Shown here in pieces: positions 60,751 to 63,076 of a stretch of 64,000 nucleotides of DNA. The first letter of the stretch is position 1; each line of letters starts with the position of its first letter. Made by a program: the position numbers and the translations under genes. The notes under the pieces were generated by a model. That model searched no databases. It saw nothing but the letters and a program-made list of their open reading frames with translations, and was not told where the DNA came from. Source of the DNA: Synechococcaceae cyanobacterium (GTDB taxonomy: Bacteria > Cyanobacteriota > Cyanobacteriia > PCC-6307 > Cyanobiaceae); NCBI GenBank assembly GCA_947378425.1, contig CANCJV010000001.1:1-64000 (forward strand), in the 5' to 3' direction.

Positions 60751-61179
60751 ATGCCGCCTGACATCCGCTGGCAGCAGCGCTTTGCCAACTTCTGCCAGGC
60801 CCTGGATCAGCTGGAGACTTTCTTCCAGCCCCCCGCGCTCAACGAGCGGGAACGTCAGGGCCTGATCAAGGCGTTTGAGTACTGTTTCGAGTTGGGCTGG
60901 AACAGTCTGCGCGACCTGCTGCTGGCGGAGGGCAACGCCGGTCTGATCGGCTCGCGCGACACCTTGCGGCTGGCTTTCCGTGTGGGCCTGATCCGTGACG
61001 GCGAGGGCTGGCTGGCCATGGTGCAGGACCGCAACCTCACCAGTCACACCTACAACCGCAGCACCGCCGAGCAGGTGAGCCAGCAGGTTGGGGATCGTTA
61101 TCTGCCCTGTTTCCGGGAGCTGCGCCTGGTGCTGAGCGAGCGCGTTCAGGCCACCGCCGCTGAGGAACTGGATGGCTGA
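60751..61179 (+). CDS. HEPN-type (HI0074-like) nucleotidyltransferase substrate-binding protein, putative toxin
   Basis: GLIKAFEYCFELGWNSLRDLLL...RDTLRLAFRVGLI...RNLTSHTYN (RX4H motif); overlaps the MNT gene. Confidence 0.85.
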   Translation: MPPDIRWQQRFANFCQALDQLETFFQPPALNERERQGLIKAFEYCFELGWNSLRDLLLAEGNAGLIGSRDTLRLAFRVGLIRDGEGWLAMVQDRNLTSHTYNRSTAEQVSQQVGDRYLPCFRELRLVLSERVQATAAEELDG

Positions 61180-61498
61180 GCATCCCGCCGCCATCGCCGC
61201 GATCCCTGGATTGCCGCCGGAGGTCTCGGCCCGCCTGCTGGCCCTGCTCAACGCCGAGCCCGCCGTGCACGAGGTGTGGCTCTACGGCTCCCGGGCCATG
61301 GGCCGCCATCGCCCCGGCTCCGACATCGATCTGACCCTGGTGGCGCCGGACCTTCGCCACAACGATCGCCTGCGGCTGATGGGCGCCCTCGATGACCTGC
61401 TGCTCCCCTGGAGCATCGACCTCTCGTTGCATCACGAGTTGCCCGAACCCCTGCGCCAGCACGTGGCCCGCGTGGGGCGGAGGCTGGCGCCTGGCTGA
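61172..61498 (+). CDS. MNT-type minimal nucleotidyltransferase, putative antitoxin
   Basis: VWLYGSRAMGRHRPGSDIDLTLV; overlaps the HEPN gene by 8 bp. Confidence 0.9.
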   Translation: MAEHPAAIAAIPGLPPEVSARLLALLNAEPAVHEVWLYGSRAMGRHRPGSDIDLTLVAPDLRHNDRLRLMGALDDLLLPWSIDLSLHHELPEPLRQHVARVGRRLAPG

Positions 61499-61550
61499 GC
61501 GGCGCCGGCATGACGCTTGTTGCCAGATGCCGACTTGATTGGGCGAATGC

Positions 61551-61581
61551 TTGACAATCCCCCCCCCCCCTCAATAAAAAT
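61551..61581 (+). promoter_or_regulatory. Putative promoter with a 12-nt poly-C tract between -35 and -10
   Basis: TTGACA (61551-61556), C12 (61559-61570), TAAAAAT (61575-61581), about 18 bp spacer; 22 bp before the ATG at 61603. Confidence 0.55.
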
Positions 61582-61602
61582 AGTTTTAAGTTCGGAAAAG
61601 TT

Positions 61603-62268
61603 ATGAAATTTTATAAATTTATTACTCATTATTTCGGCATTGTTGGAGCATCGATAGTCGTAGCTTCGCTTCCCGCTCAGGCAGCGGTCATCACATATAC
61701 CGATCGCGATGCTTTTCTTGCCGCTTTGTCCAGTTCTTCCACTGACAACTATGATGACTTGACGACAGGCTTGCAAGGTTCGCCGTTTTCGAGAACGATC
61801 CCTGGCTACACTTACAATGCTGTGGCAAGTCAAGGTCTGTTCGCCCAGCCCACGGGCGGATCCCAGGTTCTGTCTACCAATAATCTTGAACCCTTGACGT
61901 TAAATTTTGCGGCTGGAGCCCCTACTGCCGTAGGTGGATATTTCTTTAATTCCGATATCAATTTCAATATTCTCAACCGCGTCATCACGGTCACGGCCAA
62001 TCCCGGTGCATCCGCCCAATCAGTCTTGACCGGCTCAGCCACCAATTTCTTTGGTTGGCTTGATGACAGCGGCACGTCCTTCACCTCGCTGTTGATCGTG
62101 CCTGGCGCAGGAAATCCAGCCGCCTACGCAACTGTGGATGATCTGGTGCTCGGCAAGGCTGCGCCGGCATCGGTGCCTGCCCCCCTGCCGCTGATGGGTG
62201 CAGCCACCGCTTTTGGCTTTAGTCGTCGCCTGCGTTCCCGCATCGCCGCCTCCCGCCCTCGTGGTTGA
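61603..62268 (+). CDS. secreted protein with CTERM-type (PEP/VPLPA-like) sorting signal
   Basis: Signal peptide ending AQA; C-terminal VPAPLPLMGAATAFGFSRRLRSRIAAS tripartite signal (motif, TM, basic tail). Confidence 0.82.
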   Translation: MKFYKFITHYFGIVGASIVVASLPAQAAVITYTDRDAFLAALSSSSTDNYDDLTTGLQGSPFSRTIPGYTYNAVASQGLFAQPTGGSQVLSTNNLEPLTLNFAAGAPTAVGGYFFNSDINFNILNRVITVTANPGASAQSVLTGSATNFFGWLDDSGTSFTSLLIVPGAGNPAAYATVDDLVLGKAAPASVPAPLPLMGAATAFGFSRRLRSRIAASRPRG

Positions 62269-63076
62269 GAAGGAGCGCCTTGCTCTGGCGCTGTTGCTGG
62301 CTGTCGCTGCCCGTGCCCTGGTCTTCGTCTTTGTTGTCGCGGTCGCCGTCCGTTTGTTTCCGGTTCAGGCGCTCGATCCCGCCTGGCAGATGAATGTCTG
62401 CTCGGTCCTGCTCAATCAGGCGGCGCTGCCCTTGCTGGCCCTGGTGCTGCTGCACGCCGCCTCGGCTCTGCATCCCGCCGACGGTCGCCTGGCTTCTGCG
62501 CGCAATCGTTGGCGCGGCCTGGCGGTGGCAGCAACCCTGGGCTTTCTGCTGCTACTACCCCTGCAGGGGTTCGCCACCTGGCGTGGCCTAAGCCAGGCCA
62601 TTCAGCAGGATTCTGCCCGCCGTGCCGATGCGGAGCGGCGTTCAGGGGCGATGCTGCAGGCCATCCAGGCGGCTTCCAGTGTCGACGACCTGCAGGCCCG
62701 CATGCAGCGCCTGCGAGGTCCCACGCTCACCCCCGCCGATCGCGCCCTGCCGCTTCCCCAGCTGCGGCGCCAGCTGGAGGCCAATCTTCTGGCCGCCCGA
62801 CGTCAGCTGCTGGATCGCGTCTCAGGCCCCGCGCCCAACCAGGTGTGGATGATCCTGAGTGATGGCGTGCGCCTCGCTGTCTCCTCCCTGGCCTTCGCCC
62901 TCGCCTTCGCGGCCGGCGGCCAGCGCCGGCCCAGTCCTGAGCCGCTGCTGTTGGAATGGTCGGAGACTTTCGGGCGTTGGAAACGCTTACTCCCCCTGAA
63001 GCTGGGCCGTCGCCAGAAGCACTCCACAAACGATCCGCGCCGTTATCTCAGGGAGATTGAATCCAGAGATCCCTGA
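62264..63076 (+). CDS. HpsJ-like membrane protein
   Basis: TM segments with RLFPVQALDPAWQMNVCSVLLNQAALPLLALVLLHAAS, layout similar to the 35728-36426 protein; start uncertain (GTG VEKERLALA frame). Confidence 0.6.
   Translation, partial: VEKERLALALLLAVAARALVFVFVVAVAVRLFPVQALDPAWQMNVCSVLLNQAALPLLALVLLHAASALHPADGRLASARNRWRGLAVAATLGFLLLLPLQGFATWRGLSQAIQQDSARRADAERRSGAMLQAIQAASSVDDLQARMQRLRGPTLTPADRALPLPQLRRQLEANLLAARRQLLDRVSGPAPNQVWMILSDGVRLAVSSLAFALAFAAGGQRRPSPEPLLLEWSETFGRWKRLLPLKLGRRQKHSTNDPRRYLREIESRDP

Follow-up and report, generated by a model that had tools for sequence, protein, structure and literature searches.

Does the run of 12 cytosines that precedes a gene for a secreted, PEP-CTERM-like protein in a Cyanobium genome form part of a promoter whose output shifts as the run changes in length? 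The run lies within a stretch of 64,000 nucleotides that was analysed in full (hereafter the window), and the genome holding it is referred to as G000. An initial annotation of this DNA placed the run in a promoter spacer and took the host to be a picocyanobacterium, which is correct. Direct reading of the forward strand also bears out the proposed order of elements: TTGACA, a perfect hexamer and candidate -35 element (61551..61556), AT (61557-61558), the C12 tract (61559..61570), TCAA (61571-61574), TAAAAAT as a candidate -10 element (61575..61581), and then the ATG at 61603 that starts the gene. The tract is followed by an A/T-rich leader (61571..61602), and a conserved intergenic block (61499..61550) lies 5' of TTGACA, both on the forward strand. 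The spacing, put at about 18 bp, measures 18 nt from TTGACA to TAAAAA (four of six positions as in TATAAT) or 19 nt to AAAAAT. We call the -10 element imperfect because this pair is absent from the output of a strict promoter scan, which asks for a spacer of 16-18 and a T at the final -10 position. C12 is the sole run of C or G of at least nine in the window (a first-order model predicts about 0.04 C-runs of at least 12 per 64 kb), and as an uninterrupted mononucleotide tract it falls in the length range, about nine or more, in which slippage can occur.

The gene that the tract would control (61603..62268, forward strand; orthologs at 61-84% identity) encodes a protein of 221 aa. By eye, its N-terminus reads as a signal peptide (MKFYKFITHYFGIVGASIVVASLPAQA), and a protein search finds that the tail, VPAPLPLMGAATAFGFSRRLRSR, resembles those of many Cyanobium proteins. 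The tail carries a PEP-like ending, yet it scores only 11.3 bits against TIGR04155, under the cut-off of 21.6. The earlier description of a CTERM-sorted protein thus stands for the likeness of the tail and not for the profile, and PEP-CTERM-like is a reasonable label on the sequence. PEP-CTERM proteins are presumed to be located at the cell surface. Upstream is an MntA-like minimal nucleotidyltransferase (61172..61498, forward; matches to PF18765/PF01909 and NF047752), which is syntenic in many relatives and anchors the locus across Cyanobium species. It is preceded by an HI0074-type nucleotidyltransferase substrate-binding protein (60751..61179, forward, limits from codon scoring; TIGR01987 89.4 bits, PF08780 118.5 bits). 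The last few bases of the PEP-CTERM gene are shared with a gene for an HpsJ-like membrane protein (62261..63076, forward; NF038305 55.9 bits and NF050013 51.6 bits, both below cut-off), probably on one transcript with it. This is adjoined on the reverse strand by a toxin-antitoxin-like PIN-domain protein (PF01850; 63048-63680). There are nine HpsJ-like matches in G000 (contigs C10, C18, C15, C41 and others), at least two of them directly after PEP-CTERM genes.

The upstream region is retained in related species. TTGACAAT is found in the orthologous upstreams of G024, G020 and G028, and TTGACA is identical in these three and G000, followed by tracts of C12 (G000), C9 (G024), C8 (G020) and C7 (G028); these are differences between species, each represented by one genome. 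Across the four species, identity in the 45 nt that lead up to TTGACA is 84-96%; the 30-32 nt separating tract and ATG have diverged rapidly, to 47-73% among orthologs and 47-59% relative to G000. TAAAAT occurs 3' of the tract in G020, G024 and G029, and the distance from TTGACA to the A/T-rich box is 18 nt in the window vs 13-14 in the orthologs. G029 has a related upstream, which contains C5 and TATAAAAT and is interrupted by an insertion. The contrast between a conserved flank and a divergent leader (24-33 nt), seen in the window (61499-61602) and in L125, L126 and L127, appears also in the ortholog pairs L336/L342, L337/L343 and L340/L344.

An ortholog of the gene is present in Cyanobium sp. 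Cruz CV13-4-11, in a Synechococcus UW140 MAG and in a Lac Pavin MAG, among others. None of the five relatives with a copy (G024, G029, G028, G020 and G010) retains it undamaged. Copies in G024 (L125, L002) and G029 (L102, L005) are split at ends of the GGGCTTGCTGA / TCAGCAAGCCC type, which suggests insertion-sequence insertion; those of G028 and G020 have lost the C-terminal tail, and that of G010 has an internal deletion. The pairing of the intact gene with a near-canonical spacer, and of broken copies with short spacers, involves too few cases to lean on. A different PEP-CTERM gene follows the MntA-like gene in G005, G065 and G018 (L099, L100 and L112), with tracts of C16, C16 and C9, respectively. 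At this locus in G001 (L101) the tract-bearing stretch is missing.

Beyond this locus, we scanned 42 Cyanobium genomes for TTGACA N0-14 G7 and for the corresponding C7 pattern. Nine of the 14 distinct polyG sites closely precede a PEP-CTERM gene or an ortholog of one: seven have a PEP tail downstream, one precedes a truncated ortholog and one is at a contig end. Eight have the start of a PEP-CTERM gene, or at two of them that of a broken or shortened relative, 24-33 nt past the tract (L346, L336, L337, L339, L340, L342, L343 and L344). L340, on a truncated contig, is the ortholog of L344. At L336 (G062, with a G8 tract) the PEP-CTERM tail is in another frame than the start codon, suggesting that the gene is frameshifted. 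The ninth site, L350, is the one at a contig end; we infer its PEP-CTERM assignment from a flank that matches L337. Among polyC sites, 5/23 are PEP-CTERM cases, namely the window, its three orthologs and L213 (candidate start 33 or 99 nt downstream), bringing the combined count to 14 of 37 TTGACA-tract sites. When the hexamer before G7 is scrambled, 1/11 sites falls at a PEP-CTERM gene (9/14 vs 1/11, p=0.007). That site, L400 in G018, reads ACAGTTGTGTGTGTG9, with a perfect TATAAT about 17 nt on and the PEP-CTERM gene next. None of 12 loci examined in other genera of the family is a PEP-CTERM case. Groups of orthologs differ in tract length at a retained TTGACA (G13/G8 in G064/G062; G10/G9 in G033/G031; G8/G7/at least G16 in G024/G065/G033). 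An unrelated PEP-CTERM gene in G023 is preceded by TTGACA-AG-A8-G8-TAAAAAT, with the same 18-nt spacer and the same box as in the window.

One alternative is that the tract is neutral, having grown by slippage in the tolerant intergenic DNA of a GC-rich genus, beside an accessory gene that is decaying, and regulates nothing. We consider this unlikely, but the strongest of the competing explanations. Consistent with it are the broken orthologs of the window gene and the abundance of such runs. G000 has 36 C/G runs of at least nine and seven of at least 12 (a first-order model built on the window predicts about 146 and 4.5), and 26 of the 36, the window tract included, are outside predicted genes, with neighbours of all kinds. 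Runs of at least 12 are present in 35 of the 42 Cyanobium genomes; of 30 sampled loci, 24 lie outside predicted genes, and the thirty show no preference for PEP-CTERM genes. That C/G runs are abundant, mostly extragenic and without this preference is our chief ground for caution: a C12 somewhere in the genome is expected, and what is not expected is a C12 between TTGACA and an A/T-rich box before a surface gene. The broader proposal that long C/G tracts generally mark surface genes in the genus was rejected, given that runs of at least 12 lack such a preference.

Neutral growth fails to predict, however, a 10-fold or greater excess of tracts upstream of PEP-CTERM genes. The TIGR04155 profile matched in one of the 42 genomes, and the PEP-CTERM set was therefore assembled by protein search; selection by tail similarity is blind to upstream sequence. 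Control genes came from 40 arbitrarily chosen 20-kb stretches. A C/G run of at least eight is found within 100 nt upstream of 11/114 PEP-CTERM genes vs 1/420 controls with a gap of at least 60 (p=2.8e-7) and 1/226 with a gap of at least 150 (p=3.7e-5), p-values that are optimistic because start-codon rules differed between groups and orthologs are not independent. With the first gene set, 300 nt and long-gap controls gave only p=0.02, and a second set was fetched separately for this reason; taken singly, the sets give 6/58 and 5/56, each significant. Composition shuffles average 0.9 and do not exceed 5, vs the 11 observed. The last 60 nt upstream have 52% GC at PEP-CTERM genes vs 66% in controls, so that fewer C/G runs, not more, should be present there if tracts were neutral. 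Nor would neutral growth account for the clustering of these tracts a few tens of nucleotides from the start codon, or for their association with TTGACA. Most PEP-CTERM genes have neither TTGACA nor a tract, and TTGACA as a general mark of PEP-CTERM promoters was rejected (3/114 vs 2/420, p=0.07).

We lean, with modest confidence, towards reading C12 as a slippage-prone homopolymer inside or adjoining the promoter of the PEP-CTERM gene, a promoter that slippage would tune through its spacer, and as one member of a genus-wide set on Cyanobium PEP-CTERM genes. TTGACA would serve as the -35 element and, past the tract, the A/T-rich box as the -10. Slippage during replication would add or remove C residues, altering the spacer (18 nt with C12, 17 nt with C11) and with it the level of transcription, so that a clonal population may come to express the surface protein in a mixed fashion. 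Judged from sequence, C/G runs upstream of surface-protein genes in freshwater Cyanobium that far exceed chance, and whose lengths vary by species, fit an on/off or dimmer switch under slippage control. We are more tentative, at slightly less than even chances, about the wider proposal that PEP-CTERM promoters across Cyanobium carry slipping poly-G or poly-C tracts that diversify the cell surface stochastically, possibly as a defence against phages or grazers. The idea of a phase-variable promoter, as first put forward for the window, draws considerable support across species from the differing tract lengths at a kept TTGACA and from recurrence of the motif at other PEP-CTERM genes; it is weakened by the imperfect -10 and by spacing. 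The 18-nt spacer is found only in G000 and at the unrelated G023 gene, and most others are 13-16 or 22-24 nt. Given these spacers and the poor -10 boxes, either many of the genomes were captured with these promoters in a weak state or the tract has another mode of action.

The latter option, in which the tract is functional but not as a sigma-70 spacer, seems to us rather improbable. Perhaps TTGACA is the site of a regulator; alternatively, the tract may influence DNA shape, the position of the RNA start or the leader. A change in tract length would still tune expression. Such a role is favoured by the many examples in which spacing varies and the -10 match is poor, by PEP-CTERM tracts that lack TTGACA or are 10-20 nt from the start, and by the G9 tract of G018, which occupies the -35 position. 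Against it stand the repeated occurrence of a perfect TTGACA directly 5' of tracts and the 18-nt spacer to TAAAAA common to two unrelated genes.

A recombination junction at which PEP-CTERM genes are swapped, with the homopolymer as a by-product, would account for the fall in identity across the tract and for the different PEP-CTERM gene, with its own C9-C16 tract, at this locus in G005, G065 and G018. We consider this very improbable: the N-termini of the proteins are clearly homologous again right past the divergent leader, and the same pattern is seen at other, unrelated loci whose flanks are likewise unrelated. An error of assembly in the tract length is hardly credible, since even though homopolymers are error-prone and three G000 contigs end in C/G runs of 16-18, C12 sits inside a 160-kb contig, relatives have homologous C7-C9 tracts, and single-contig Cyanobium genomes also contain C/G runs of at least 12. 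Long C/G homopolymers at contig starts or ends (contigs C12, C43 and C67 of G000; L253 (C94) and L241 (C29)) may reflect either breaks in the assembly or artefacts of sequencing.

Most of what is known about contingency loci driven by slippage comes from host-associated bacteria. The preferred and simplest reading, a promoter tuned by slippage through its spacer length, has its closest precedent in opc of Neisseria meningitidis, where variation in the length of a poly-C in the promoter region alters transcription (PMC3960869, a review that cites Sarkari 1994). Common to both is a poly-C before a surface protein gene in a (here candidate) promoter region. The opc product is an outer-membrane adhesin of a pathogen, whereas that of Cyanobium is a PEP-CTERM-like protein of a free-living cyanobacterium. 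The precedent offered initially, the poly-G between -35 and -10 of N. meningitidis porA, of which 9G, 10G and 11G variants are reported to alter expression (PMC3639595), fits as a companion to opc: in both porA and Cyanobium a homopolymer separates the (candidate) -35 and -10, and the G-type Cyanobium cases resemble porA. Unlike porA, the window tract is C on the coding strand, and the apparent range of Cyanobium spacers is wide (13-24 nt).

The gene otherwise resembles those of cyanobacterial PEP-CTERM/cyanoexosortase systems, with a signal peptide, a short candidate tail of the Pro-rich, hydrophobic and basic kind, and an HpsJ-like partner downstream. In Nostoc, exosortase is required for motility and biofilm formation (PMC12188702). 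Phase variation of a cyanobacterial PEP-CTERM system is not described in the papers found, and searches of the open-access literature turned up no paper that connects PEP-CTERM genes or Cyanobium to phase variation by slippage. Promoter-tract contingency loci of the opc/porA type are apparently undescribed in cyanobacteria. The interest of the locus is in the genus-wide association with PEP-CTERM genes rather than in a single C12 tract. If the association reflects regulation, the set would be a mechanism for clonal surface heterogeneity in free-living picocyanobacteria, which bears on phage resistance, grazing and aggregation. Elsewhere in G000, on contig C15, C/G10 tracts flank a PEP-CTERM gene on both sides.
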